Shown here: positions 9,998 to 36,102 of the stretch, one piece after another | How positions within the stretch are numbered: the first letter of the stretch is position 1 | Layout: each line of letters begins with the position of its first letter | NCBI GenBank assembly: GCA_012026835.1 | Contig: VEPN01000031.1 | Coordinates: 1-37,009, forward strand | Origin: Candidatus Methanoperedens sp. | Lineage (GTDB): Archaea > Halobacteriota > Methanosarcinia > Methanosarcinales > Methanoperedenaceae | Length of the DNA stretch: 37,009 nt | Direction of reading: 5' to 3' | Notes under the pieces: model-generated | The model's input: the letters and a program-made list of their open reading frames with translations, nothing else | Told to the model about the DNA's origin: nothing | Database searches by the model: none | Translations under genes and position numbers: made by a program

Positions 9998-11557
9998 ATG
10001 GGAGTTATGTTTGAACTTACGGGGGAACAAGAAGAGCTTGCGGAGAGATTGAAAAATCTGGATAAGGATGTCAAAATACTGTGGAACCGCAAGGGAGTAG
10101 TGTCCATGATAGACGGGCTTATCACAATCCCGGTAATAAGAGACATTGATGAGTCGGTACGTCATTTCCTGATGGAATACAGCGCCCTCTTCGGGATCAG
10201 GAACGACCTGTCGGATTTAAAATTCACAACTAAAGTTTATGGCATTGGTACATCTCATATAAGATATCAGCAATACCACGAAGATGTACCTGTCACGTGT
10301 GCTTTTACATCAGTCCACCCGAATGAGAAATCCAGGATCATTATGGTCAAGAACAATTACCATCCCGTAATACCGCTGGATACCAAAGGCATCCTGGAGC
10401 GCGGGATTCCAAAAGAGAAGGCCATAAAAATAGTAAACTCATTTTTCAACGCGGGAACAAGGCTGAAAAGAGATACTTCTGCTGAACTCGTAATATATCC
10501 AAAAGATGAACAATATTATCTTGCATGGAAGGTTTGCATATCATTGAAGAGACCGTCTGAAGGCTACCATGTCTATGTAAATGTTGAAGATGGGAAGGTC
10601 ATCAACAAGATCAATATTTTTAAAAGGAAGACCATCGGGAAAGGCAGGGTTTTCATCCCTAACCCAATAGTAGCTTTAAAAGACCAGAGCCCTTCTCCTG
10701 ATTCAGATATCTCAGAGGACTACTACATTCCGGTGGTTTTAAGAGGTCTTGACGGTTCAGGTTTTTTAAGAGGTGAATATGTGGATACATGTGATACGCC
10801 TGTCAGGGCGTATGAAACATCCCTTTTGTTCTATTACAAACGGGGAGACAGCAGGTTCTGCGAGGTAATGGCTTATTACCACATCGATTCATTCCAGAGA
10901 TTTATCCAGAAACTCGGGTTTAAGAATATCTGCAATAGACAGGTAAAAGTGAATGCCTGCGCAGAAGGAGTGGGTTCGTACTTTGATCCCGATACCGGGG
11001 CGATCACTTACGGTTCAACCAGAATACCAGACGCAGAAGATGCTGATATTATCATTCATGAATATGCCCATGCTATAATGGAATGCCAGACACACTTTTT
11101 CGGTATGACGGATGAAGGCAGCGCGATGGAGCAGGGATTCGGGGATTTTCTCGCAGCATGTTATTTCTCGGAAGAGGGCGATGGATTCAATCGCGAGTGC
11201 ATGGGCGAATGGAGCGGCATAGGCAATGTACTTAATTGTGTCAGGAGAGTAGATAGCCAGAAATATTATCCTGAGGATTTCCGCGGAGTTGGGAATTGCG
11301 ACTCAGATTCAGAAATATGGTCTGCGGCTTTATGGGATATGTATCTTGCTTTAGGCGGGAACTCAAAAGAGAAAGATAAAAGGATTAAATCAAGAGACCG
11401 TTCAATAAGGCTTGTACTCCAGAGTAATTTTTTCCTCAATCCACTCTCAGGGTTCATCGATGGGGCCGAGGCCATCATTATGGCCAACAAGCATCTCTAC
11501 AAAGGGAAAGATGAAGGAAAAATAAAGGGCGCTTTTATAAAAAGAGGCTTTTTTTAA
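9998..11557 (+). CDS. Thermolysin-like zinc metalloprotease with FTP propeptide
   Basis: A 519-residue gluzincin-like protein. Residues about 45-200 look like the FTP/PepSY propeptide region of M4/M36 proteases (HFLMEYSALFGI, then HIRYQQYHEDVPV), which usually acts as chaperone and inhibitor. The catalytic region has HEYAH (His354, Glu355, His358) and, 20 residues on, AMEQGFGDF. Related proteins as I recall them read GEGFGDY here, where the Glu is the third zinc ligand; in this protein that position is Gln379, with Glu378 one residue earlier. No signal peptide is visible despite the secreted-type architecture, so export is unclear. It may be an active protease with a shifted ligand or a degenerate one. 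It is monocistronic and ends in a T-rich run. Confidence 0.75.
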   Translation: MGVMFELTGEQEELAERLKNLDKDVKILWNRKGVVSMIDGLITIPVIRDIDESVRHFLMEYSALFGIRNDLSDLKFTTKVYGIGTSHIRYQQYHEDVPVTCAFTSVHPNEKSRIIMVKNNYHPVIPLDTKGILERGIPKEKAIKIVNSFFNAGTRLKRDTSAELVIYPKDEQYYLAWKVCISLKRPSEGYHVYVNVEDGKVINKINIFKRKTIGKGRVFIPNPIVALKDQSPSPDSDISEDYYIPVVLRGLDGSGFLRGEYVDTCDTPVRAYETSLLFYYKRGDSRFCEVMAYYHIDSFQRFIQKLGFKNICNRQVKVNACAEGVGSYFDPDTGAITYGSTRIPDAEDADIIIHEYAHAIMECQTHFFGMTDEGSAMEQGFGDFLAACYFSEEGDGFNRECMGEWSGIGNVLNCVRRVDSQKYYPEDFRGVGNCDSDSEIWSAALWDMYLALGGNSKEKDKRIKSRDRSIRLVLQSNFFLNPLSGFIDGAEAIIMANKHLYKGKDEGKIKGAFIKRGFF

Positions 11558-12003: not shown

Positions 12004-12909
12004 ATGAAAAGAAAAGAAACAAACGAACCATCCAATGAAGCAGATACCGCATTGCGGCAGGAACTGGTGGAACATTTCCGTGAAAAGCGGGAACTGCTTC
12101 GGCAGCAATGGGTAGAGCAGATGACAACAAAAGGCTTGCTTGCAGGCATGACCCGGGAAGATATCGAAAATGAGTCAATCACTATCTACGATACTTGTAT
12201 TGTCTGTCTGGAAACCGGGGAGTACGAAGGCGCCCAGACCTATGCCATGCGCATGGCAGAACGCGGCGTGCTTCGCGGGATGACGACCGAACAGATAATC
12301 GGCGGCATACTCACGCTGCGCGATGTGTACGGGCGCAGCCTGTTTGAGTGGTACCAGCAGGATATGGAGAGGCTGTCTGCGGCGCTTGATATCTACGAAC
12401 CTGTCGCCAATAAGATCATTTCCATCGTTGCTCTTGCTTTTGTAGAAGAGCGCGAAAAAGTCGTCCGGCAGCAGCAGGAGGCCATCCGGGAACTTTCAAC
12501 GCCCGTATTGCAGGTCCGGGACCAACTGCTCATCCTGCCAATTATCGGAGTTATCGATACCCATCGCGCCCGCCAATTAACCGAACAATTACTGCGTACC
12601 ATCCGCACCAGGCGCGCCAAGGTCGTGGTTATGGATATCACGGGCGTTCCTGCCGTAGATTCCAAGATCGCAGGCCACCTTGTGCAAACGGTGGATGCTT
12701 CCAAGCTAATGGGGGCGACGGTCATCGTTACGGGCATATCACCTGAGATAGCCCAGACGCTTGTGACCCTTGGAGTGGATATAGCCAAGATGAACACCGT
12801 AGGAGACCTGCAGGGCGGCATCGAAGTAGCGAACCAGTTTTTGGGTTACAAAGTAGTCAGAACATATCCGGAAGCCGATTTAAATCACAAAGAAAAAAAG
12901 GTGCAATGA
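12004..12909 (+). CDS. rsbR: RsbR-type stressosome scaffold protein (RsbRD N-domain + STAS)
   Basis: A 301-residue RsbT co-antagonist. Residues about 15-150 form a helical sensor domain resembling RsbRD_N (REKRELLRQQWVEQM), and residues about 160-285 a STAS domain. Two phosphorylation sites of B. subtilis RsbR have counterparts: Thr186 in VIDTHRA (T171) and Ser220 in DITGVPAVDS (T205, here Ser). RsbR and RsbS build a large cytoplasmic complex that holds the kinase RsbT until stress. It is the first gene of the operon; RsbS follows after 3 nt. What the N-domain senses cannot be read from sequence. Base composition of this and the next genes looks more GC-rich than the surroundings, which fits acquisition from a bacterium. 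Confidence 0.88.
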   Translation: MKRKETNEPSNEADTALRQELVEHFREKRELLRQQWVEQMTTKGLLAGMTREDIENESITIYDTCIVCLETGEYEGAQTYAMRMAERGVLRGMTTEQIIGGILTLRDVYGRSLFEWYQQDMERLSAALDIYEPVANKIISIVALAFVEEREKVVRQQQEAIRELSTPVLQVRDQLLILPIIGVIDTHRARQLTEQLLRTIRTRRAKVVVMDITGVPAVDSKIAGHLVQTVDASKLMGATVIVTGISPEIAQTLVTLGVDIAKMNTVGDLQGGIEVANQFLGYKVVRTYPEADLNHKEKKVQ

Positions 12910-12912
12910 ACG

Positions 12913-13284
12913 ATGCTGGTTCCGATACTCAAACAGGGTGATTACCTCATTGCTTCCATCCAGTCAGAACTTAGCGATGCCGATTTGCTGAAATTACGTG
13001 ATGACCTTGTAAGACGGGTAAGCGAGTTCCGCTCGCGCGGGGTTATCGTGGATGTCACGGTGCTTGATGTAATGGATTCGTTTGCGACCCGCACCCTGCG
13101 CTCAATGGCGCATATGGTTATGCTTCGCGGGGCAGAAACCGTCATAGTCGGGATACAGCCTGAAGTTGCGTTCTCGATGGTGCAACTGGGTTTAAGGCTG
13201 GAAGGCGTAACGACCGCGCTTGACCTGGAAGAAGGACTTTCACTCCTGGACCATAAAATAAAAGGAGATAACGGGCTTGGCTGA
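12913..13284 (+). CDS. rsbS: RsbS-type STAS-only stressosome protein
   Basis: A 123-residue single STAS domain. The conserved acceptor Ser is visible in VMDSFATR (Ser56, equivalent to B. subtilis RsbS S59), preceded by the strand GVIVDVTVLD. In the known system RsbS binds and inhibits RsbT; RsbT phosphorylates it during stress and is released. GGTG lies about 9 nt upstream of the ATG, inside the end of rsbR. The 3' end overlaps the rsbT start by 8 nt. Confidence 0.9.
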   Translation: MLVPILKQGDYLIASIQSELSDADLLKLRDDLVRRVSEFRSRGVIVDVTVLDVMDSFATRTLRSMAHMVMLRGAETVIVGIQPEVAFSMVQLGLRLEGVTTALDLEEGLSLLDHKIKGDNGLG

Positions 13285-13690
13285 TAAAGCGTGCGTACCT
13301 ATCAATTCAGAAATTGATATCGTTACTGCCCGCCAGAAAGGACGGGAGATGGCACAGCAGTTGGGCTTCTCGTCCACCGAACTGACCCTAATTGCCACTG
13401 CCATCTCTGAGGTGGTGCGCAATATCGTGGAATATGCCAAGCACGGTGAACTTTGTGTGGACATTGTTCAGCAGGGTGATAAACGCGGAATCTCCGTAAT
13501 CGCCCAGGATAACGGACCGGGTATTCCTAATATCAAGCTGGCTATGCAGGATGGTTACTCGACAGGGAAAAGCCTTGGTCTGGGCCTGCCTGGGGCTAAG
13601 AGATTGATGGATGAGTTTGATATTGTCTCCGAGGTCGGAAAAGGGACGAAAGTGACCATGAAGAAGTGGGTGCAAAAGAATGTGCGATGA
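13277..13690 (+). CDS. rsbT: RsbT-type serine/threonine protein kinase
   Basis: A 137-residue GHKL kinase. It starts at TTG with GGAG 9 nt upstream. The N box is SEVVRNIVEYA (about 44-54), the G1 box DNGPGI and the G2 region GLGLPGAKRL, all intact, so it should bind ATP. In the known pathway it phosphorylates RsbS and RsbR, then leaves the complex and activates RsbU through RsbU's N-terminal domain. No RsbU phosphatase is encoded here. Instead an RsbU_N-like domain forms the N-terminus of the histidine kinase two genes downstream, the obvious candidate partner. Confidence 0.9.
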   Translation: MADKACVPINSEIDIVTARQKGREMAQQLGFSSTELTLIATAISEVVRNIVEYAKHGELCVDIVQQGDKRGISVIAQDNGPGIPNIKLAMQDGYSTGKSLGLGLPGAKRLMDEFDIVSEVGKGTKVTMKKWVQKNVR

Positions 13691-14309
13691 AACCGCCGAC
13701 CCGTTACGTTCAATCGAATTTGGTCTTGTCACGATACCATTGCAGGGAGAGTCCGTTTCAGGCGACGATTATATCATAAAGCCCTTCCATAATGGTGTTC
13801 TTGTGGCCGTGGTTGATGGATTGGGACACGGCTATGAGGCGGCCAGGGCTTCCGGGATCGCCATTGCTGCGCTTGATACCTATGTTCATGAATCAATCAT
13901 CCCGCTTGTAAAACACTGCCATGATGCATTGAAAGGAACACGCGGAGTGGTGATGAGCATTGCAAAGTTCAACCTGCCTGATAATACGCTGTCCTGGCTG
14001 GGTGTAGGAAATATCGAATGCGTGCTGCTGCGAGCGGACGAAAAATTTGCCCCCTCGCATGAGAGGCTGCTGCTTCGCGGTGGAGTGTTAGGCTACCAGC
14101 TCCCGACGCTAAGGGAATCCATAATCCCGGTGATGCGGGGTGATACACTGGTTTTTGCCACAGACGGCATCCGAAGCGGCTTTGAGGAAGGACTGAAAGC
14201 TGGCGAAAGGCCGCAGCAAATTGCAGATAATATCATGACGGGATTCTCAAGGGGGACGGATGATGCATTGGTGTTGGTTGTGCGGGTTGTGCGATATATA
14301 TGCAAATAA
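13680..14309 (+). CDS. rsbX: RsbX-type PP2C phosphatase
   Basis: A 209-residue PP2C/SpoIIE-type phosphatase with metal-binding motifs SGDDY (about 27-31), VVDGLGHG (about 44-51), FATDGI (about 159-164) and TDDALVLVV near the C-terminus. RsbX resets the stressosome by dephosphorylating RsbS and RsbR. It lacks the N-terminal extension of RsbU, which favours the RsbX assignment. The start overlaps rsbT by 11 nt and the end overlaps the next gene by 10 nt, so translation is coupled throughout. Confidence 0.85.
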   Translation: MCDETADPLRSIEFGLVTIPLQGESVSGDDYIIKPFHNGVLVAVVDGLGHGYEAARASGIAIAALDTYVHESIIPLVKHCHDALKGTRGVVMSIAKFNLPDNTLSWLGVGNIECVLLRADEKFAPSHERLLLRGGVLGYQLPTLRESIIPVMRGDTLVFATDGIRSGFEEGLKAGERPQQIADNIMTGFSRGTDDALVLVVRVVRYICK

Positions 14310-16135
14310 AGTATGACACTTTAAAAGAATTAGAAAAACAATATGTTTTAGCACTTGAGGATTATGTTGCAGAGGGGGAAGAAAGGGCTTTAGAGTGCGC
14401 GTATGAACTCGGGCGCAGGGCCATAGCCGACGGGCAGGGCATCCTGGATATAGCAGCGGTCCACCAGAGGGCTCTTGCCAGTGTCCTGCTACGCACGCAA
14501 GAGAGGGAAGAGACCATGAAGAAAGCAGGGCAATTCTTCGCTGAAAGCATAGCTCCTTTTGAGATGACATTTCGCGGGTTCCAGGAATCCATCATTAAGC
14601 TGCAGAACCTGAACAGGACGCTTGAGCAGTCTGAGATGAAATTCCGCTCTGTGGTTGAAGCTGCCAACGACGCGATAATTTCAAGCGATAGCAGCGGGAA
14701 TATTATTTCGTGGAACAAACGCGCACATGCTGTCTTTGGATATTCCGGAGAAGAAGTGATGGGCAAACCGCTTACTATCCTGATGCCTGGGCAATATGAA
14801 GATGTTCACTTAATGGGGTTGGGACGGATTAGGTCAACAGGTGAATTCGGATATAAAGGGAAAACATTTGAATCTCATGGGTTGAGGAAAGATGGCACTG
14901 AATTCCCAATTGAGATTTCCATAGCCGGATGGAAAACTGAAGACAGAGCTTTTTACACAGGTATCATCCGCGATATTACAGAGAAAAAAAGACTTGAAGT
15001 ACAATTATTACGTAAACAGCGAATGGAGAGCATAGGCACACTTGCAGGAGGTATTGCGCATGACATCAACAATATACTGACACCGATAATGCTGTCGCTT
15101 CAAATATTAAAAGAAAAAACCAAGGATGAGCAGAGCCGGAAAGTTATTGCCATCATGGAGCAAAGTTCACAGCGGGGCGCTGATCTAATAAAGCAGGTTC
15201 TTTCATTTTCACGGGGGATTGAGGGTGAACGCAAGCCTCTTCAAATCACAGACCAGATATCTGAAATCGAGAAGGTCTTAAAAGAGACATTCCCAAGAAA
15301 TATCGAAATCCGAACCGATATAGAAGAGAGACTTTTTACTATATCAGGGGACGTTACACAAATAAATCAGATTCTGATGAACCTGTGTGTAAATGCCCGC
15401 GATGCAATGCCTGATGGCGGTATTCTAAATATCACAGCTTCAAATTTTTTCATTGATGAAAACTATGCACGGATGGACAATGAGGCAAAAGCAGGTTCTT
15501 ACGTTATAATTGGGGTCTCGGACACCGGGGTCGGTATTTCACCTGAAATACTCGACAGGATTTATGAACCGTTTTTCACAACAAAGGAGTTCGGAAGAGG
15601 CACAGGGCTTGGTCTCTCAACAGCTCTTGCGATCGTGAAAAGTCACGGCGGGTTCATAAATGTGGACAGTAAAGTTGGAAAGGGGACAGCATTTAAGGTA
15701 TATCTACCTTCGACCATAGCCGAAACAGAAAACGCGGATGAGCGCCAGTCACCAGAGCGCGGGCATGGAGAATGGATTCTTGTGGTTGACGATGAGGCCT
15801 CGATCCGGGATATAACTACTGCAACATTGAAATCGAACCTTTACAATGTGATTGCAGCAGAAGATGGTATAGAAGCAGTAGCATTGTATTCTCAAAAAAG
15901 AAAGGATATCAAGGCTGTCCTTATGGACATGGCGATGCCCAATATGGGCGGACTGGCGTGTATCAGTATACTGCGTAAAATTGACCCCAAAGTAAAGGTT
16001 ATTGCAGTAAGCGGATTGACTGAGAAAGACAAGCTTGCAAAAGTTGAAGATGCCCGTATAGGCGCCTTTTTATCCAAGCCTTATACTGCCGATAGATTGC
16101 TGAGAACCATACACGAAGTCATAAGCTCGAAATAG
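14300..16135 (+). CDS. Hybrid histidine kinase with RsbU_N-like N-terminus
   Basis: A 611-residue soluble protein. Order: an RsbU_N-like helical domain (about 1-95; LEKQYVLALEDYV, AAVHQRAL, ESIAPFEM), one PAS domain (about 112-228), HisKA with phospho-acceptor His254 in AHDINN, HATPase (NLCVNARDAM at 361-370, DTGVGI, GTGLGL), and a C-terminal receiver with Asp543 in LMDMAMP. No transmembrane segment. The first domain is the part of RsbU that RsbT binds, so RsbT probably docks here and links the stressosome to His-Asp phosphotransfer. It has no DNA-binding output, so a downstream carrier is needed. The kinase core and receiver are close paralogues of the second kinase in the operon. Confidence 0.85.
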   Translation: MQIKYDTLKELEKQYVLALEDYVAEGEERALECAYELGRRAIADGQGILDIAAVHQRALASVLLRTQEREETMKKAGQFFAESIAPFEMTFRGFQESIIKLQNLNRTLEQSEMKFRSVVEAANDAIISSDSSGNIISWNKRAHAVFGYSGEEVMGKPLTILMPGQYEDVHLMGLGRIRSTGEFGYKGKTFESHGLRKDGTEFPIEISIAGWKTEDRAFYTGIIRDITEKKRLEVQLLRKQRMESIGTLAGGIAHDINNILTPIMLSLQILKEKTKDEQSRKVIAIMEQSSQRGADLIKQVLSFSRGIEGERKPLQITDQISEIEKVLKETFPRNIEIRTDIEERLFTISGDVTQINQILMNLCVNARDAMPDGGILNITASNFFIDENYARMDNEAKAGSYVIIGVSDTGVGISPEILDRIYEPFFTTKEFGRGTGLGLSTALAIVKSHGGFINVDSKVGKGTAFKVYLPSTIAETENADERQSPERGHGEWILVVDDEASIRDITTATLKSNLYNVIAAEDGIEAVALYSQKRKDIKAVLMDMAMPNMGGLACISILRKIDPKVKVIAVSGLTEKDKLAKVEDARIGAFLSKPYTADRLLRTIHEVISSK

Positions 16136-16144
16136 GGTGCGTAT

Positions 16145-16178
16145 GAGATGGAGAATGAGATGGAGAATGAGATGGAGA
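16145..16178 (+). repeat. 12-bp tandem repeat at the start of the binding-protein gene
   Basis: The unit GAGATGGAGAAT occurs just under three times. It encodes MENEMENEME and supplies an in-frame ATG every 12 nt (16148, 16160, 16172), with GGAG 6 nt before each later ATG. Slippage would add or remove four residues without a frameshift. Confidence 0.75.
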
Positions 16179-17230
16179 GAACCAGTGATAAAATGGAAAA
16201 AATTGGCATGAAATCATCAAAGCGGTTTATCCTGGTAATTATCGTTATTGCCGCAATTTTGGCGGTAGTTTTAGGCTTAATGTTTTACCAGAATCAGGGC
16301 TATACAGGGAAGACGGAATCAATCACCATCGGATATTCGCCGTTTGAGCAAACCGCACTTTTCTGGATTGCAAAAGACCAGCACTTTTTCGAGGCGAACG
16401 GCCTTAATGTAACCTTGCGTAAGTATGATAGCGGGGTAGGTTCACTGGATGGGATGTTAAACGGTGAAGCGGATATTGCGGTAGGAGTAACAGAGTTCCC
16501 CACTGCCTGGAGGATACTCCAGAAAGAAAGAATTCGCATAATTGGGGGCATCGCTAAAACCGAACAGATATATCTTGTTGGCCGCAAAGACAGGGGAATT
16601 GAATATATCTCAGATCTTAAGGGGAAAAGGGTTGGGACTACCTTAAGAACGATATCGCATTTCTATCTCGGCAGATTTCTTGAGCTTCATGGCATGAATA
16701 TGAAGGATATAACCCTTGTTGAACTCAAAACACCCGCAGAATGGGTTGATGCTGTTGCAAACGGAGACATTGATGCAGTTGCCACTTCCCAGCCGTATGT
16801 TAATTCAGCCAAAGAGCGTCTGGGAGATAATGCTGTTATCTGGCCTGCACAGGGTGGCCAGCTCCTGTTTGGATTGATTGTTTCCACAGATGAATGGGTA
16901 ACAAAGCATCCTGAACCGGTCACCAGGTTACTTAAGTCTCTGGCACAGGCCGAAGAGTATATCATACATAATCCCGCTGAAGCAAAAGTAATTGTACAGA
17001 AGCGGCTAAACATGGACTCCGCGTATATAGAAACAATCTGGTCTCAAGACCAGTTCTCACTCTCACTCGACCAGTCACTTATTCTGGCTATGGAAGATGA
17101 GGCACGGTGGATGATTAATAATAACCTGACGGATGAGACAAACATACCTGATTTCCTGGACTACATCGGCGAGGACGGTCTCAAAGAGGTAAAACCCGAA
17201 GCTGTAGATATCGTACGGCAAAAGACATGA
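16148..17230 (+). CDS. Membrane-anchored NMT1/SsuA-type solute-binding protein
   Basis: A 360-residue protein. After a charged repeat (MENEMENEMER) and a basic stretch comes one transmembrane segment (about 25-47), then a type-II periplasmic-binding fold of the NMT1/TauA/SsuA class: ITIGYSPFEQTALFWIAKDQ, NGEADIAVG, LKGKRVGTT, GDIDAVATSQPYV. Such proteins bind small anions or amines such as sulfonates or thiamine precursors; the ligand here is unknown. No ABC permease or ATPase is nearby; instead its stop overlaps the start of a membrane sensor kinase (ATGA, 17227-17230). It probably acts as an extracellular sensor subunit. The true start could be any of three ATGs. Confidence 0.82.
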   Translation: MENEMENEMERTSDKMEKIGMKSSKRFILVIIVIAAILAVVLGLMFYQNQGYTGKTESITIGYSPFEQTALFWIAKDQHFFEANGLNVTLRKYDSGVGSLDGMLNGEADIAVGVTEFPTAWRILQKERIRIIGGIAKTEQIYLVGRKDRGIEYISDLKGKRVGTTLRTISHFYLGRFLELHGMNMKDITLVELKTPAEWVDAVANGDIDAVATSQPYVNSAKERLGDNAVIWPAQGGQLLFGLIVSTDEWVTKHPEPVTRLLKSLAQAEEYIIHNPAEAKVIVQKRLNMDSAYIETIWSQDQFSLSLDQSLILAMEDEARWMINNNLTDETNIPDFLDYIGEDGLKEVKPEAVDIVRQKT

Positions 17231-20097
17231 AGATCAAAACCCAGTTTATCAATAGTATGGTCATCTTCGGTATAATATTGCTTATTATTGCCATATCGGT
17301 GATTGCCACAAACCAGCAGGTAGAGCGGCTTAATATGCAGGAAGAGATCACTAAGAATATCGAGCACGATATAAGCGAACTCGGCTATCTGTCGAATGAT
17401 TATCTCCTTTATCACGAAAGCCCGCAACGTGCCAGGTGGGAAGCAAAATTTTCCGAGCTTTCAGATAAACTATCGAACCTGAAGCCGAACAATCCGGAAC
17501 AACAGGTTCTTATCAATGATATCAGGGAGAATCAGCAACGATTGGAAGCAATCTTCACAGATGTGGTAGCGACCTTTGAAAACGCATCTCAGGATACTGA
17601 TCCATCATTATTTCAGATATCATGGAGCCGGATGGCAGTTCAAAATCAGGGAATGATGTTTGATGCTTCACGGTTATCGCAGATGTTACGTGACCAGGAA
17701 GACCAGGTGAAGCAAACAAATATCACACTCATTTTTGTGTTGCTGGGAATATTTGCTGCGTATTTTCTTATAAATTATCTAATAGTTTACCGCAGTGCTT
17801 TAAAATCGATATCTGCTCTTCAGGCCGGAATAAAGATTATCGGTTCCGGCAACCTGGATTATTTCATCGAAACGAACAAGCAGGATGAAATCGGCGAATT
17901 ATCCCGTGCCTTCAACCAGACAACAGCGGATTTGAAAGGTGTCACCGCTTCCAGAGCTGAGCTGGAGAAGGAAATTATCGAGCGTAAGCGGGCGGAAGAG
18001 GGGCTGCGGGAAAGCAACCAGCATCTCGATTTACTCTCCTACACAGCAGGCAGGCTTCTGACAAGCGATAGGCCGCAGCAGATAATTGAGGAACTGTGCC
18101 AGAGGGTGTTAATATCCCTGGATTGCTCAGTATTCTTCAATTATCTTATGGACGAAGAGAGGCAGCGATTGCATCTCAATGCCTTTTCAGGAATCCCGGA
18201 GGAAGCCATCCGGGAGATCGAATGGCTGGATTATGGAGTTGCGGTGTGTGGATGCGCTGCCCGTGATGGAAGCCGGATAGTCTGCGAGAACATCCCTGAC
18301 ACCCCCGACCCCCGGACTGATCTTGTCCGTTCCTTCGGCATCAAAGCCTATGCATGCCATCCGCTTTTCTCCCATGGGAACGTCATAGGGACGCTTTCCT
18401 TTGGTACCAGGTCAAGACTTTTCTTTAATGAGGATGAGCTGACACTGATGAAGACTGTAACTGACCAGGTGGCAATTGCAATCGAGCGTGTAAAGGCTCG
18501 TGATGAGTTAGAACTGCGGGTTAAGGAAAGAACCATAGAACTGGAAGTTACTAACAAATCACTGCTGGCTGAAATAGAAGAGCGCAAGCGTGCCGAAGAG
18601 AAGATACGGGAACAAGCCGCTCTTCTTGATAAAGCGCAGGATGCCATTGCAGCCCGGGATCTGGAACATCGCCTCATCTACTGGAATAAAGGTGCACAGC
18701 GACTTTATGGCTGGACAGCGGAAGAAACCATAGGCAAAAATGCTGATGAACTTTTATATAAAGAAGAATCATCTGACCTCATTGAAGCCAAGAAGAGCGT
18801 AATTGAAAAAGGAGAGTGGATAGGTGAGCTGCGGCAACGGACTAAAGATAATAAGGATATCATTGTAGAAGGCCGCTGGACCCTGGTGCATGATAACGAT
18901 GGAAAACCAAAATCGATACTTTTTATCAACACCGACATTACTGAGAAAAAGAGGCTTGAAGCGCAGTTATTACGTGCGCAGCGGATGGAAAGCATAGGTA
19001 CTCTTGCAGGCGGCATAGCGCATGATATTAACAATATGCTGACACCGATTATGCTCTCTTTGCAAATGCTAAAAGAAAAATTCGGGGATGAACAGAGCCA
19101 GAAATTGCTTACTATTCTTGAACAGAACTCCCAGCGCGGGGCAGCTTTAATAAGGCAGGTCCTTTCATTTGCACGGGGTATTGAGGGTGAACGAAAGCCA
19201 CTTGAAATTACTCATATCATATCTGAAATTGAGAAAATTATAACAAATACCTTTCCAAGAAATATAGAAATTCAAATAGATATAAATAAAGACCTCTATA
19301 ATATCTCAGGGGATGCCACGCAGTTGCACCAGGTCATAATGAACCTGTGCATAAACGCCCGTGATGCTATGCCTGATGGCGGGACCCTTCACATCTCTGC
19401 CGGGAATGTTTCCATTGATGAAGACTACGTAAGGATGCATAATGAGGCAAAAGCGGGCTCTTATATCGCCATTTCAGTCTCGGACACCGGAGCAGGTATC
19501 CCCTCCAAAATACTTGACAGGATTTTTGATCCGTTTTTCACGACAAAGGAGTTCGGGAAAGGAACTGGACTTGGCCTGCCAACAGCCCTTGCAATTGTGA
19601 AGAGCCACGGGGGATTTATAAATGTAGATAGCAAGGTTGGGAAAGGAACAACGTTCGGGGTATATCTGCCAGCTACTCTGGACAAAATACGAAATGTAGA
19701 GGAACAGCAGCTTGAATTGCCTGCCGGGCACGGGGAATTGGTACTCGTTGCCGAAGACGAAGATTCAGTTCGTGAGGTTACTATTTCTATATTGGAAAAA
19801 TACGGGTATAATGTGCTTGCAGCAAACGATGGAGCAGAAGCTGTGGCATTATATACCCAAAATAAAGATAAAACCAAAGTTGTTCTTATGGATATGATGA
19901 TGCCGGTAATGGATGGTTACATGGCTATCAGGGCTATTAGAAAGATTACTCCTGAGGTTAGGGTTATTATAGTCAGTGGATTAGCAGAGAAAGATAAACT
20001 TAAAAACATGGTAGATTGTACTAATGCTTTCCTGCCAAAACCTTACACTGCCGAGAGATTGCTAAGAACAATACATGAAGTCATAAGCGCGAAATAG
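17227..20097 (+). CDS. Membrane hybrid histidine kinase (TM-HAMP-GAF-PAS-HK-REC)
   Basis: A 956-residue sensor kinase. Domains in order: TM1 (about 8-27), extracellular helical region (about 28-164), TM2 (about 165-188), HAMP (about 190-245), coiled coil, GAF (about 266-425, with Cys in VCGCAA and YACHPLF), second coiled coil, PAS (about 460-580), HisKA with His599 in AHDINN, HATPase and a receiver with Asp889 in LMDMMMP. Coupled to the solute-binding protein by a 4-nt overlap, so that protein is the likely external input. The C-terminal ~380 residues are closely similar to the first kinase of the operon, implying duplication and possibly shared partners. Confidence 0.88.
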   Translation: MKIKTQFINSMVIFGIILLIIAISVIATNQQVERLNMQEEITKNIEHDISELGYLSNDYLLYHESPQRARWEAKFSELSDKLSNLKPNNPEQQVLINDIRENQQRLEAIFTDVVATFENASQDTDPSLFQISWSRMAVQNQGMMFDASRLSQMLRDQEDQVKQTNITLIFVLLGIFAAYFLINYLIVYRSALKSISALQAGIKIIGSGNLDYFIETNKQDEIGELSRAFNQTTADLKGVTASRAELEKEIIERKRAEEGLRESNQHLDLLSYTAGRLLTSDRPQQIIEELCQRVLISLDCSVFFNYLMDEERQRLHLNAFSGIPEEAIREIEWLDYGVAVCGCAARDGSRIVCENIPDTPDPRTDLVRSFGIKAYACHPLFSHGNVIGTLSFGTRSRLFFNEDELTLMKTVTDQVAIAIERVKARDELELRVKERTIELEVTNKSLLAEIEERKRAEEKIREQAALLDKAQDAIAARDLEHRLIYWNKGAQRLYGWTAEETIGKNADELLYKEESSDLIEAKKSVIEKGEWIGELRQRTKDNKDIIVEGRWTLVHDNDGKPKSILFINTDITEKKRLEAQLLRAQRMESIGTLAGGIAHDINNMLTPIMLSLQMLKEKFGDEQSQKLLTILEQNSQRGAALIRQVLSFARGIEGERKPLEITHIISEIEKIITNTFPRNIEIQIDINKDLYNISGDATQLHQVIMNLCINARDAMPDGGTLHISAGNVSIDEDYVRMHNEAKAGSYIAISVSDTGAGIPSKILDRIFDPFFTTKEFGKGTGLGLPTALAIVKSHGGFINVDSKVGKGTTFGVYLPATLDKIRNVEEQQLELPAGHGELVLVAEDEDSVREVTISILEKYGYNVLAANDGAEAVALYTQNKDKTKVVLMDMMMPVMDGYMAIRAIRKITPEVRVIIVSGLAEKDKLKNMVDCTNAFLPKPYTAERLLRTIHEVISAK

Positions 20098-20100
20098 GGT

Positions 20101-20511
20101 TTACCTTCCAAGGATGGTATGAATTTTCTCTCTCAGTAAATTTAGATCAAACGGCTTTGTAATATAGTCGTTCGCCCCCAATTCTATACCCGGTATCCTG
20201 CCTGTTTCGCCCATCCCGGTCAGCATAATAATCGGGATATCTCTGGTCAGGGGATCTTTCCTGAGCTTGTTGCATATTTCATAACCTGTCCTGTCAGGAA
20301 GCATGATGTCTAATAAGATCAGATCAGGAATCTCACTGCGCGCTTTTCGGATAGCTCCATCGCCGCTATATGCCTCGATGACGTCATAGTTATCTGATTC
20401 AAGGGACATTTTCAATGCATCAACTATGCTCTTTTCATCATCTACAACCAGTATTTTGCCACGTGCATCAGGTAAGTTATTCATCCTTCTCACACTTATC
20501 CAATTACCCAC
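20101..20511 (-). CDS. Stand-alone response regulator receiver
   Basis: A 136-residue single REC domain: acidic pocket VVDDE (about 23-27), phospho-acceptor Asp in LLDIMLP, Thr in MLTGMG and Lys in TKPFD. There is no output domain, so it probably acts by protein-protein contact or as a phosphorelay carrier. The start could be the GTG at 20511 or an ATG at 20484; the second has GAGAAGG directly against it, so I keep the longer form. It converges with the large hybrid kinase (3-nt gap). Both hybrid kinases lack effectors, so this is a possible shared target. Confidence 0.82.
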   Translation of the reverse strand: MGNWISVRRMNNLPDARGKILVVDDEKSIVDALKMSLESDNYDVIEAYSGDGAIRKARSEIPDLILLDIMLPDRTGYEICNKLRKDPLTRDIPIIMLTGMGETGRIPGIELGANDYITKPFDLNLLREKIHTILGR

Positions 20512-27177: not shown

Positions 27178-28224
27178 ATGAAAGTCTTGAAAAAAGAACT
27201 GAGATTCGGTGAAGGTGAAATATCTCTCATGGCCGAATCCCTGGATGACCTGTGGCATTTGAAATATATACTTGAGCCGAAGGATACGGTATATGCATTT
27301 ACGAAAAGGAGAATAGAAGGCGCAACTGATAAATTAAGGCCTGAAAAAGCCGATAAGAAAACCGTCCGCCTCGGGATACAGGTCGAAAAGATCGAGTTCC
27401 ATAAATTCTCAAACCGCCTGCGGGTGCACGGGACTATCATCGATGGGATAGATGCCGGGGCCTACCATACCCTGAATATCGAAGAGGGAACCGATATCTC
27501 AATAATCAAGAGATGGAAGAATGACCAGCTTGAAAGGATAAAGGAAGCTGAAATAGCAGCCAGGCGTCCGAAAGTAATAATCGCCACGATTGAGGAAGGA
27601 GAGGCATGCATCGGGGTGGTCCGCCAGTTCGGGGTTGAGGAATCTTCAAGCCTGCGGCAGTCTCTTGGAAAAGGCGAGGGCAACAGACGTAACGAGTTCT
27701 TCGGGGAACTGGCATCACAATTGAAATGGGCTGCTGAAAAAGTTGATGCTGTGATACTGGCAGGGCCGGGATTCACGAAGGAGGATTTCCTTGATTTTAT
27801 AAGGACAAGGGAACCTGAACTTTCCAAAAAAGTGGTTCTTGAAGATACCTCATCCATAGGAGTATCGGGTTTCCAGGAAGTCCTGCGCCGCGGGGCTGTA
27901 GACAGGATAATGCAGGAATCAAGGATCGGCAGGGAAGCAAAGCTCATAGAGGAATTAATGAAAGAGATCTCGATTGCAGGAAAGGCGGCCTACGGCATGG
28001 CCGACGTCAGGAATGCGCAAAGCCTTGGCGCTATCGAAACACTCCTTATCACGGATGAACTGCTTCGCACAGAACGCGAAAGTGACTCGATAGATGATTT
28101 TTTAAAAAATGTTGAGCGTTCGCAGGGAAGGATAGTGGTATTCAGCACAGAGTTCGAACCGGGGAATAAGCTTGAATCCCTGGGCGGGATAGCGGCCCTT
28201 CTGAGATTCAGGATCAGTTCATGA
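27178..28224 (+). CDS. pelA: Pelota, ribosome rescue factor
   Basis: A 348-residue archaeal pelota (Dom34) of full length. The N-terminal Sm-like domain (about 1-130) has LWHLKYILEPKDTVYAFTKR; the central domain (about 130-260) has VILAGPGFTKEDF and VLEDTSSIGVSGFQEVL; the C-terminal eRF1-like domain (about 265-348) has IAGKAAYGMADVRNAQSLGA and LLITDELLR. Together with an aEF1A GTPase it splits ribosomes stalled on broken mRNA. It lacks the GGQ motif of release factors, as expected. It overlaps the DUF434 gene by 4 nt (ATGA), a sign of a functional link. Confidence 0.93.
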   Translation: MKVLKKELRFGEGEISLMAESLDDLWHLKYILEPKDTVYAFTKRRIEGATDKLRPEKADKKTVRLGIQVEKIEFHKFSNRLRVHGTIIDGIDAGAYHTLNIEEGTDISIIKRWKNDQLERIKEAEIAARRPKVIIATIEEGEACIGVVRQFGVEESSSLRQSLGKGEGNRRNEFFGELASQLKWAAEKVDAVILAGPGFTKEDFLDFIRTREPELSKKVVLEDTSSIGVSGFQEVLRRGAVDRIMQESRIGREAKLIEELMKEISIAGKAAYGMADVRNAQSLGAIETLLITDELLRTERESDSIDDFLKNVERSQGRIVVFSTEFEPGNKLESLGGIAALLRFRISS

Positions 28225-33530: not shown

Positions 33531-35009
33531 ATGAATATCCTTGTTGTCACCGGGAGGCTGGCAGAAAAGACGGTAGGGAAGTCGGTTCGAAATGAAGCCG
33601 AAATTCTTGTCCTTGATATAGAGGTGGCAGCGTTTACCACTCCCGGTCTACTCCGGCGTTCCCTGCCCCATAAAAAGTATGACCTGATACTTATTCCGGG
33701 TCTTGCATCGGGGGATTTTTCAGGACTTGAAAAAGAAATAAACACGCCAATAAGGCTTGGACCGAAACATGCTGTTGACCTCGGTTTTGTTCTTTCTTTT
33801 GCTGAGAACACTCCTTTTTCCACACAGGTCCCTGCATGTGAACTTTTGACTGAAAAAAAAAGATCAGATGCGATTGGAAAAATAAACAAACTTGAGATGG
33901 AGGCGGCTGCTTCCCTGTTCATAAAAGGGGTAAAGATCGGCGGGAATTCCCGTATGAAAGTGATGGCTGAAGTGGTGGACGCCGGGAATTTGGAACAACA
34001 AAAGTTGATCGACAGGATATTGTATTTCAAAGAACAGGGCGCTGACATAATCGACCTTGGAATATCGCTTGAAACGACAAGGGAACAGGTAAGAACTGCG
34101 GTATTAACTGCAAAATCTATCACCTCCCTGCCTCTTAGCATCGATACGCTGGAACCCGGCCTGATAAATGAGGGACTGGATGCTGGTGCAGACATCGTAC
34201 TGAGCCTGAATTCTGAAAATATTAATGAAGTAAGGGATAATATCATCAGGAGTTCTGCTGCCGCCGTAATAATCCCCGATTGCTCCTGTGAGCTTGAGAG
34301 CCTTTTTAACACAATCGTATCAGCCCGTGATTCAGGAATAAATAATATAATTGCAGATCCCGTGCTTGAACCACTGGGTCACGGATTTGTTGAATCAATT
34401 GACAGGTATTATGAGTTCAGGAAACGCGACGGGTCAACACCGCTGTTTTTTGGCGCAGGTAATGTGTCAGAACTAATGGATGCGGATTCTGCGGGAATCA
34501 ATGCATTGCTTTCAGGTATTTCAATGGAGCTTGATGCGAGTATCCTGTTCACTCCCGAATACAGCGATAAGGCCCGCGGCAGCGTGCATGAGTTAAAAAC
34601 AGCTTCAATGATGATGATTCTTGCAAGAGAAAGGGGCAGCGCTCCCAAGGACCTGGGTATCGATCTCCTGGAGATAAAAGAAAAAAGAAGGCGGGAGTTC
34701 GGGAAGCTGCCTGTTTCATCCATAAAAGCAGAGGGCAGTAGGCAATGGCATCTTGATCCTGCCGGCTGCTTCAAAATCGAGATCACGGAGGATGAAATCA
34801 GGGATGGGAAGCCCAAGTCCGGAAAAATCGTTGCAAAGCATAAGAATAAATCCATCGAAGGTGAAACGGCCAAAGAAGTTCTTGATACGATACTTCGTTT
34901 CGGCCTTGTTTCGAATCCTGACCATGCAGGTTATCTTGGAAGAGAACTAATGAAAGCCGAAATTGCCCTGAAATTCAGGAGGAGTTATTCCCAGGATGAC
35001 AAGTTTTGA
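33531..35009 (+). CDS. Archaeal dihydropteroate synthase-like protein
   Basis: A 492-residue protein. Residues 1-140 form an N-terminal domain (MNILVVTGRLAEKTVGK); residues about 145-390 a TIM-barrel pterin-binding domain with ILYFKEQGADIIDLGISLET (the DHPS pattern for binding pterin), LPLSIDTLEP, DIVLSLN and FFGAGNVSEL; residues about 410-485 a C-terminal DUF4346-like domain. This long form is known in methanogens and is thought to take part in pterin (tetrahydromethanopterin) synthesis or binding, where p-aminobenzoate-ribofuranosyl phosphate replaces pABA; the exact step is uncertain. It overlaps the mqnC-type gene by 14 nt. Confidence 0.82.
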   Translation: MNILVVTGRLAEKTVGKSVRNEAEILVLDIEVAAFTTPGLLRRSLPHKKYDLILIPGLASGDFSGLEKEINTPIRLGPKHAVDLGFVLSFAENTPFSTQVPACELLTEKKRSDAIGKINKLEMEAAASLFIKGVKIGGNSRMKVMAEVVDAGNLEQQKLIDRILYFKEQGADIIDLGISLETTREQVRTAVLTAKSITSLPLSIDTLEPGLINEGLDAGADIVLSLNSENINEVRDNIIRSSAAAVIIPDCSCELESLFNTIVSARDSGINNIIADPVLEPLGHGFVESIDRYYEFRKRDGSTPLFFGAGNVSELMDADSAGINALLSGISMELDASILFTPEYSDKARGSVHELKTASMMMILARERGSAPKDLGIDLLEIKEKRRREFGKLPVSSIKAEGSRQWHLDPAGCFKIEITEDEIRDGKPKSGKIVAKHKNKSIEGETAKEVLDTILRFGLVSNPDHAGYLGRELMKAEIALKFRRSYSQDDKF

Positions 35010-36102
35010 TTTGATAAAACAATTTTACAATGATGAAGATGATATTGCGGGAATTCTTACCGCTGCATTGGATAATGATCCTCCCGGATTAGATGATGGT
35101 GTTAAGCTTCTTGAATGCAGCAATATCAACCTTACTGGTGCGGCTGCTGACATGCTGAGAAAAGACAGTGCAGGAGAGCTTGTTACTTTCGTTATAGACA
35201 GGAACATAAATTACACCAACATCTGCTCTTCAAAATGCAAATTCTGTGCATTCTACAGGGAGCCCGGGGCAGAAGATGCATATGTCCTTGGAATAGATGA
35301 GATTATTTCAAAAATTGACGAGGCAGTCAGGCTCGGCGCGACCCAGATATTGATACAGGGAGGAGTGAACCCTTCAATTACCATAGAATATTACGAAGAG
35401 ATGCTAAGGCAGGTTAAAAAAAGGTTCAATGTCCAGATGCATGCGTTTTCACCTCCTGAGATAGTTCACATCTCGAAGCTGTACGGGGCAGGCATCAGGG
35501 AAACGATCTCGCGCCTGCATGACGCAGGGCTTGATTCCATTCCAGGAGGTGGGGCTGAGATACTTGATGACAGGGTACGCAGTTATGTTTCACCGGATAA
35601 GATCGGATGGGAAAAATGGCAGGAAGTCATGCTTACCGCCCATTCGCTCGGGATCCCGACAACTGCAACGATGGTATTCGGGCATGCCGAAACCCTGAGG
35701 GAAAGGGTTGAACACATTATCAGGATACGGGATATGCAGAAAAAAACCAGCGGCTTCACTGCATTCATTCCGTGGAGTTTCCAGTCAGAAAACACGCAGT
35801 TAAGCGGGAACTCGACAGGAATAGATTATCTTAAAATTGTCGCAGTATCGCGGATTTTGCTAAATGGTTATATCAGGAACATCCAGGCTTCATGGGTAAC
35901 GCAGGGGCTTTCCATGGCCCAGGTGGCATTGAACTACGGGGCCAACGACCTCGGGGGGACAATGATAGAAGAAAATGTTGTCAGGGCTGCAGGTGTGCCG
36001 TTTCACAGCAAGAACGTAGAGGAATTCGTGCATATAGCTAAAAAAATGGGGCGTCCCATAGCGAAAAGGGATACGCTGTATAATATATTAGAGCGATATT
36101 AG
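34996..36102 (+). CDS. mqnC: Radical SAM enzyme, MqnC-type (cyclic dehypoxanthinyl futalosine synthase)
   Basis: A 368-residue radical SAM protein with CSSKCKFC (Cys77, Cys81, Cys84) binding the [4Fe-4S] cluster. The distinguishing stretches GLDSIPGGGAEIL, TTATMVFGHAETLRERVEH, FTAFIPWSFQSENT and IQASWVTQGLSMAQVALNYGANDLGG match MqnC of the futalosine menaquinone pathway; the F420 enzyme CofH typically reads GLDTIPGTAAEIL and FVPLPF instead. MqnC cyclises dehypoxanthine futalosine. Finding it in an archaeon with marker-2 fits menaquinone-dependent methane oxidizers. Coupled by overlap to the preceding gene. Confidence 0.82.
   Translation: MTSFDLIKQFYNDEDDIAGILTAALDNDPPGLDDGVKLLECSNINLTGAAADMLRKDSAGELVTFVIDRNINYTNICSSKCKFCAFYREPGAEDAYVLGIDEIISKIDEAVRLGATQILIQGGVNPSITIEYYEEMLRQVKKRFNVQMHAFSPPEIVHISKLYGAGIRETISRLHDAGLDSIPGGGAEILDDRVRSYVSPDKIGWEKWQEVMLTAHSLGIPTTATMVFGHAETLRERVEHIIRIRDMQKKTSGFTAFIPWSFQSENTQLSGNSTGIDYLKIVAVSRILLNGYIRNIQASWVTQGLSMAQVALNYGANDLGGTMIEENVVRAAGVPFHSKNVEEFVHIAKKMGRPIAKRDTLYNILERY

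Follow-up and report, generated by a model that had tools for sequence, protein, structure and literature searches.

The stressosome operon of this Candidatus Methanoperedens archaeon probably has an output of its own in a hybrid histidine kinase whose N-terminal RsbU_N dimer would bind the released switch protein RsbT and from which a long helix would relay the signal. What can be observed, in the window (the whole stretch of 37,009 nucleotides that was analysed) and in its relatives, are the domains of this kinase, their order and conservation, the co-occurrence of RsbT with RsbU_N, linkers spaced by heptads and matched classes of RsbT and RsbU_N. In the mechanism that we propose, RsbT would at rest be held on the RsbR/RsbS core; under stress it would phosphorylate the core, depart and bind the RsbU_N dimer of the kinase. 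This binding would order or turn the helix of residues 85-121, and the two-stranded helix would then drive the PAS and HisKA helices in fixed register, the outcome being an altered autophosphorylation of His254 and transfer to Asp543, while RsbX would reset the RsbR/RsbS core. The binding of RsbT, an activating rather than inhibitory effect, the stress itself and any partner acting after the receiver are elements that we infer. Control by RsbT is the favoured reading because of the RsbU_N matches, the overlapping genes, the conserved order, the co-occurrence with RsbT, the unbroken helix and published precedent, and as a prediction from sequences and models it finds good support in the gene order, in the co-occurrence, in the residue classes and in the helical linker.

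The window corresponds to contig C44 of an archaeal assembly of 3.32 Mb, with 116 contigs and a completeness of 99.8%, which carries an archaeal 16S match of 757.6 bits (the same model also matches some bacterial control genomes) and McrA (the model for which matches only the two methanogen controls). Contamination of the assembly is ruled out by the eRF1/Pelota-type (27178-28224) and CofH-type (34996-36102) genes on the contig, and by an operon common to congeners. A five-gene run on the forward strand (12004-16135) encodes RsbR-, RsbS-, RsbT- and RsbX-like proteins, which adjoin one another at 12004-14309, and then the kinase, the last four genes overlapping. The RsbR-like protein (12004-12909, 301 aa, STAS 2e-16) combines an N-terminal sensor region, common to many bacterial RsbR proteins, with a STAS domain in which Ser220 (VDS) and Thr252 (PEIAQT) stand at the usual phosphosite positions; the RsbS-like STAS protein (12913-13284, 123 aa, STAS 4e-12) has Ser56 within MDSFATR, and we take these three residues to be the phosphosites. 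The RsbT-like switch kinase (13277-13690, 137 aa), assigned by HATPase_c_2 (6e-13) and the RsbT tree, overlaps rsbS by 8 bases, and the RsbX-like stand-alone PP2C phosphatase (13680-14309, 209 aa, SpoIIE family 1e-14) overlaps both rsbT and the kinase gene. No sigma-B partner-switch genes were seen in the operon.

Several neighbours of the operon merit a brief description. The gene at 9998-11557 encodes, here in an archaeon, a metallopeptidase of the M36 type that has a thermolysin propeptide motif. On the other side, a gene for an SsuA/NMT1-type substrate-binding protein (16148-17230, forward strand, identified by domain match) is possibly part of the same operon as the five-gene block; in most relatives it does not adjoin that block. 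It overlaps the start of the gene for a second hybrid kinase (17227-20097, forward strand; HAMP-GAF-PAS-HisKA-HATPase-REC by Pfam, without RsbU_N), whose sensor the binding protein may be, and a lone receiver gene (20101-20511) is convergent to the second kinase gene. At the congener locus L028, a receiver 84% identical to that of 20101-20511 adjoins the RsbU_N kinase gene.

The kinase itself is encoded by an intact open reading frame (14300-16135, forward strand, 611 aa) with the order RsbU_N-PAS-HisKA-HATPase-REC, as judged by Pfam and active-site motifs, such that RsbU_N, HisKA and HATPase stand in one protein adjoining rsbT and rsbX. The PAS domain covers residues 115-226 (14642-14977, forward strand; PF00989/PF13426, with a model matching FixL-type PAS folds), and Pfam places HisKA at 246-306, HATPase_c at 350-472 and Response_reg at 493-604 (15035-16111 in all, forward strand). 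The usual motifs are present, namely His254 and the N-, G1- and G2-boxes in the kinase and Asp497/498, Asp543 and Lys593 in the receiver, these being the residues that presumably matter for activity. Pfam finds no PP2C domain within the 611 residues, the adjoining PP2C (13680-14309) being the separate RsbX-like protein; a misread phosphatase was rejected, since the protein of 14300-16135 is without PP2C. The initial annotation had proposed that the PP2C of RsbU is here exchanged for PAS-HisKA-HATPase-REC, and the Pfam detection of all four domains, with PP2C absent, bears this out. Its proposal of a His-Asp phosphorelay is unproven: the single Hpt match in the assembly lies inside a CheA (according to a Pfam model that a divergent HPt could escape). 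The best structural matches of the PAS domain (14642-14977) are the haem PAS domains of FixL, at about 30% identity, and the histidine in YEDVHLMGLGR seems, by comparison with FixL, to occupy the haem-His position. By eye, however, a histidine is kept there in no more than 7 of the 13 genus copies read, so that a role in haem sensing is not conserved.

The assignment of the N-terminus to RsbU_N (PF08673; residues 13-89, 14336-14566, forward strand) is based on Pfam and on profile matches to the structures of RsbU. Residues 1-117 alone score 36.0 bits (E 8e-9) and the whole 611-aa protein 31.9 bits, the gathering cut-off being 25.5 bits, and this protein is the sole RsbU_N match across the assembly. 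A profile of 20 archaeal copies, containing zero Bacillus sequences, finds the B. subtilis RsbU structures first (2j6z, 2j70, 2j6y and 1w53, at 9e-20 to 2.5e-19), with KaiA next and far weaker (1.5e-4), and the reverse profile, made from bacterial copies, scores the domain of the window at 104.8 bits. These matches in both directions reject a chance similarity. The idea that the kinase keeps the pattern of the RsbT-binding domain of RsbU, for which a profile search had been suggested as a check, stands with the score of residues 1-117, and the three motifs originally quoted for it are found in the reading frame. The similarity needs a profile to be seen, because phmmer with the single sequence from the window retrieved no RsbU structure from the solved structures, and NCBIfam has no model for residues 1-117. 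The AlphaFold2 model of the region is all-helical, with four helices and a long one; its top 50 matches in Foldseek are all PAS folds, LOV folds or proteins that bear a PAS domain, and RsbU is not among them. Tyr28 of RsbU, the mutation of which is described as abolishing RsbT binding (PMC12143880), has Glu32 as its equivalent in the window.

The putative signalling helix (residues 85-121, 14552-14662, forward strand) joins RsbU_N to PAS. In the AlphaFold2 model (residues 1-237, 36-row alignment, mean pLDDT 91.5), the four helices are followed by one unbroken predicted helix that continues into PAS with a block pLDDT above 90, and heptad spacing is apparent in the corresponding lengths of relatives. 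The distance from the conserved Glu82 to the first PF00989 position in 15 proteins is 21, 24 (two proteins), 31 (five), 38 (two), 45, 52 (two), 63 or 77 residues, a count limited to scanned PAS-bearing proteins with usable Pfam coordinates and a usable PF00989 start (L159, where the PF00989 match is a later PAS, was dropped). Modulo 7, the remainder is 3 in 12 of the 15 (24, 31, 38, 45, 52) and 0 in the other three (21, 63, 77). Remainders differing by 4 are allowed by a coiled-coil stutter. Eight random distinct lengths fall into such a remainder pair in 8e-5 of draws, by a two-class test chosen post hoc with the lengths already seen, and at least five of the eight share one class in 0.006; a control loop inside RsbU_N, from His55 to Glu82, has 11 lengths in which all seven remainders are represented. 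In direct fusions, the distance from Glu82 to the kinase histidine is 39, 46 or 67 residues in archaea, and 35, 42 and 49, or 51 and 65, in bacterial subtypes, while in HisKA_3 proteins it is 38 (12 of 13) or 42 (1 of 13), and a HisKA_2-like archaeal protein again has 38. The steps inside any one HisKA subtype come in multiples of 7; since the phase differs between subtypes, the heptad rule does not impose one phase on all.

Gene order is well conserved within the genus. The arrangement R-S-T-X followed by the RsbU_N-PAS kinase recurs at 10 of 11 congener loci (L027-L037), and three further loci (L071, L073 and L074) have R-S-T-X-RsbU_N. At L036, an RsbU_N-PAS-kinase follows two PAS-STAS proteins, and the 16 kb covered at this locus contain no S, T or X gene; for some copies RsbT may therefore have been lost or be a shared one. 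The kinases of L036:6591-10696 and L072:4392-8462 are alike in having RsbU_N-PAS and in following two RsbR paralogues of the PAS-STAS type, and neither rsbS nor rsbT nor rsbX is seen in the sequence covered around them; they are perhaps accessory outputs that draw on RsbT from another locus. Among 31 genus genomes, true RsbU_N occurs in 16 and RsbT in 17, all 16 being among the 17 (Fisher p 6e-8, kinship ignored); in G332, which has RsbT and no RsbU_N, the 3,407-base contig stops about 600 bases past rsbT. Before curation RsbU_N exceeded the cut-off in 17 of the 31 genomes, including a false match in G302 (26.1 bits), by eye an ArsA/GET3-type ATPase; three sub-cut-off matches (G304:C66, G314:C16 and G295:C121; 17.5-18.9 bits, ORFs of 96-100 aa) were likewise dropped before the co-occurrence count. 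Within the genus, moreover, kinase cores that differ in origin are found attached to one and the same RsbU_N-PAS: the core at L028 is sister (100/98) to that of another kinase gene at the same locus, L036, L037 and L072 carry the genus RsbU_N-PAS on another core without receiver, and L071 and L073 keep RsbU_N but have a longer linker, a replacement of the first PAS and a different PAS-kinase next to it.

The RsbT tree, which has few columns and an incompletely settled bootstrap, groups 14 window-type genus rows with 48 bacterial rows in one clade (99/98), apart from other archaeal RsbT. Because archaeal and bacterial rows are mixed on this tree, with six changes of label, at least two of them by the starred branches alone, the stressosome cassette has probably moved between bacteria and archaea, most simply from bacteria. 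The RsbU_N domains follow the same division. Residue 88 is acidic in 59 of 59 proteins accompanied by RsbT of the window's clade (Glu in 54, Asp in 5) and in 0 of 58 with other RsbT, which have Gly (45), Ala (8) or Ser (5), whereas residue 32 is Tyr in none of the 59 proteins that share the window's class, against 46 of 58 others. Residue class and RsbT clade thus agree in all 117 proteins, the clade being assigned by hand from the tree and ten RsbU_N proteins with no RsbT in view being left out. Since the phosphatases of L112 and L162 (PP2C output) belong to the acidic class and archaeal kinases such as L077 to the other, the class tracks RsbT and not the output. An allosteric path from RsbT to the kinase is supported by this uniform match and by the heptad-step linkers; the matched classes could also arise in the absence of contact, from the joint inheritance of linked genes.

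The outputs attached to RsbU_N vary widely. A scan with an RsbT profile covered the best 80 of 544 loci; the 80 are all from bacteria and form a sample biased to close RsbT, and 73 of them contain RsbU_N, in 74 proteins mostly adjoining T or X. PP2C is present in 29 of the 74, comprising 27 of 27 Bacillus-type proteins and 2 of 47 others. The 23 of these 47 non-Bacillales proteins that were scanned with Pfam are 18 histidine kinases, 2 PP2C, 2 GGDEF-EAL and 1 HD; in some of them RsbU_N lies just under the Pfam cut-off (e.g. L112, L087, L159, L092 and L095) or is missing from the Pfam listing (L134), and these calls rest on our own RsbU_N profile. The architecture RsbU_N-PAS-GAF-HisKA-HATPase-REC of L120 (Acidobacteria) is near that of the window. 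The rarity of the fusion implied by the initial annotation is accordingly wrong: besides the 18 of 23 scanned proteins from these best 80 loci, RsbU_N kinases beside rsbT are published for Proteobacteria. For the archaea, 53 RsbU_N proteins of Halobacteriota were collected, counting that of the window, and PP2C is found in none of them; 39 include a histidine kinase within one ORF, 2 (L068, L081) are kinases that are broken or cut, and in the remaining 12 only GAF, PAS or a cut end is seen. The proteins of L038-L040, considered as phosphatases, proved to be kinases.

Further variants were encountered. In some relatives RsbU_N is followed by GAF domains; L066:5523-7913 and L070:5539-7938 have RsbU_N with four GAF and no kinase, separate kinase genes then following, and another family comprises six RsbU_N proteins, each about 360 aa long, of which the four that were scanned (L184, L187, L191 and L193; L190 and L192 make up the six) match GAF weakly. 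RsbU_N is joined to an HD-type (HD_5) domain, possibly a c-di-GMP phosphodiesterase, in L142:7400-9199 (Bipolaricaulota), and to PAS-GAF-GGDEF-EAL behind rsbRSTX in L092:6984-9587 and L095:6997-9636 (Noviherbaspirillum). An RsbT-type ATPase and an RsbX-type PP2C share one chain in both archaea and bacteria (L068:4458-5444, L201:5395-6417, also L104, L125 and L142). Stressosome genes are present on haloarchaeal plasmids of Halanaeroarchaeum and Halobaculum (L200, L201), where Pfam found no RsbU_N in the two neighbouring proteins scanned.

Counted against control by RsbT are the change of Tyr28 to Glu32, the L036 kinase without RsbT nearby, linked inheritance as an alternative source of the matched classes, and the Foldseek search without RsbU. 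The loss of the Tyr28 equivalent and the lack of S, T and X near L036, together with a full PAS domain most similar in structure to FixL haem PAS domains, would suit a kinase governed by PAS, perhaps through haem or redox, in which RsbU_N is a mere dimerisation or scaffold remnant of the fusion and RsbT has no part. We consider such an arrangement quite unlikely, given that RsbT is present in 16 of 16 genus genomes with RsbU_N, that the residue class of RsbU_N tracks the RsbT clade, that L071 and L073 retain RsbU_N though the first PAS is replaced, and that the FixL-like histidine is restricted to 7 of 13 copies.

The direction of the effect is unreadable from sequence, and HisKA kinases are often both kinase and phosphatase. 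RsbT binding might in principle inactivate the kinase, or shift it to acting as a phosphatase of its own receiver or of a free one, such as that of 20101-20511, the counterpart of which at L028 adjoins a kinase gene; RsbT is nevertheless described as an activator of RsbU (PMC12143880), and inhibition appears unlikely. Alternatively, RsbT might act as an enzyme, through Ser/Thr phosphorylation of the kinase, instead of as an allosteric partner. Transient phosphorylation has been suggested for the downstream kinase of V. vulnificus, in which RsbU_N was undetected (PMC9237108), but that suggestion concerned kinases without RsbU_N, whereas the kinase of the window has the docking domain, and, by the title of a reference that two papers cite, switch-protein kinase activity is unneeded to activate the PP2C target; we regard an enzymatic role as very improbable. 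For allosteric control by RsbT there is precedent, as RsbT acts on RsbU, and reportedly also on a GGDEF protein, via RsbU_N (PMC12143880); for RsbU a KD of 4.5 uM is given in PMC12143880.

RsbU_N kinases in stressosome operons are already known, and the protein of the window is an archaeal member. According to PMC9237108, some alpha-, beta- and gamma-Proteobacteria have RsbU_N-like domains on signalling proteins behind rsbRSTX, HisKA/REC being among the downstream types named, and rsbRSTX is present in some archaea. The fusion type is not new, because such Proteobacterial kinases are published (PMC9237108, PMC12143880). Those of Heinz et al. 2022 (PMC9237108) likewise have an N-terminal RsbU_N and are encoded behind rsbRST(X), and the coiled-coil linker proposed for them, with an NreB-type example modelled in PMC12143880, is a further likeness; the member described here differs, by comparison with the text of these sources, in being archaeal and in having PAS and a C-terminal receiver. 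B. subtilis RsbU shares the N-terminal RsbT-binding domain and the rsbR-rsbS-rsbT neighbours, but has PP2C in place of the kinase, whereas in the window RsbX precedes the target gene, Tyr28 is not kept and the operon is without visible sigma-B partner-switch genes. In MtG of Moorella thermoacetica (RsbU_N-GAF-GGDEF), for which RsbT control is reported (PMC12143880, citing Quin 2012), RsbU_N similarly plugs the stressosome into another output, there a diguanylate cyclase. The Vibrio vulnificus stressosome (VvD1/VvD2) also has rsbRSTX followed by two-component genes, but its RsbR is globin-type and its authors detected no RsbU_N (PMC9237108).

What is modestly new, then, are the archaeal members (0 of 53 with PP2C), the heptad rule and the matched classes. 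Literature searches of titles and abstract openings, with earlier stressosome-distribution reviews outside their scope, yielded no archaeal RsbU_N kinase, and the term 'heptad' is absent from the main text of PMC12143880. On a broader view, which we put forward tentatively, the stressosomes of Halobacteriota may do without a phosphatase and sigma factor altogether, the regular target of RsbT being a histidine kinase or else a GAF/PAS protein that has kinases beside it; RsbU_N may be a phase-locked plug that takes any output in heptad register, and RsbT and RsbU_N may form at least two specificity classes that pass jointly from one domain of life, bacteria or archaea, to the other. If the heptad register holds, a helix longer by 7 residues should preserve control and one longer by 1-2 should break it; if the classes reflect specificity, a cross-class swap of RsbT should fail and a joint swap of RsbT and RsbU_N should work. 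For a group with little-known stress signalling, the operon supplies a clearly delimited archaeal example of a His-Asp kinase that should be under the control of a Ser/Thr switch protein.
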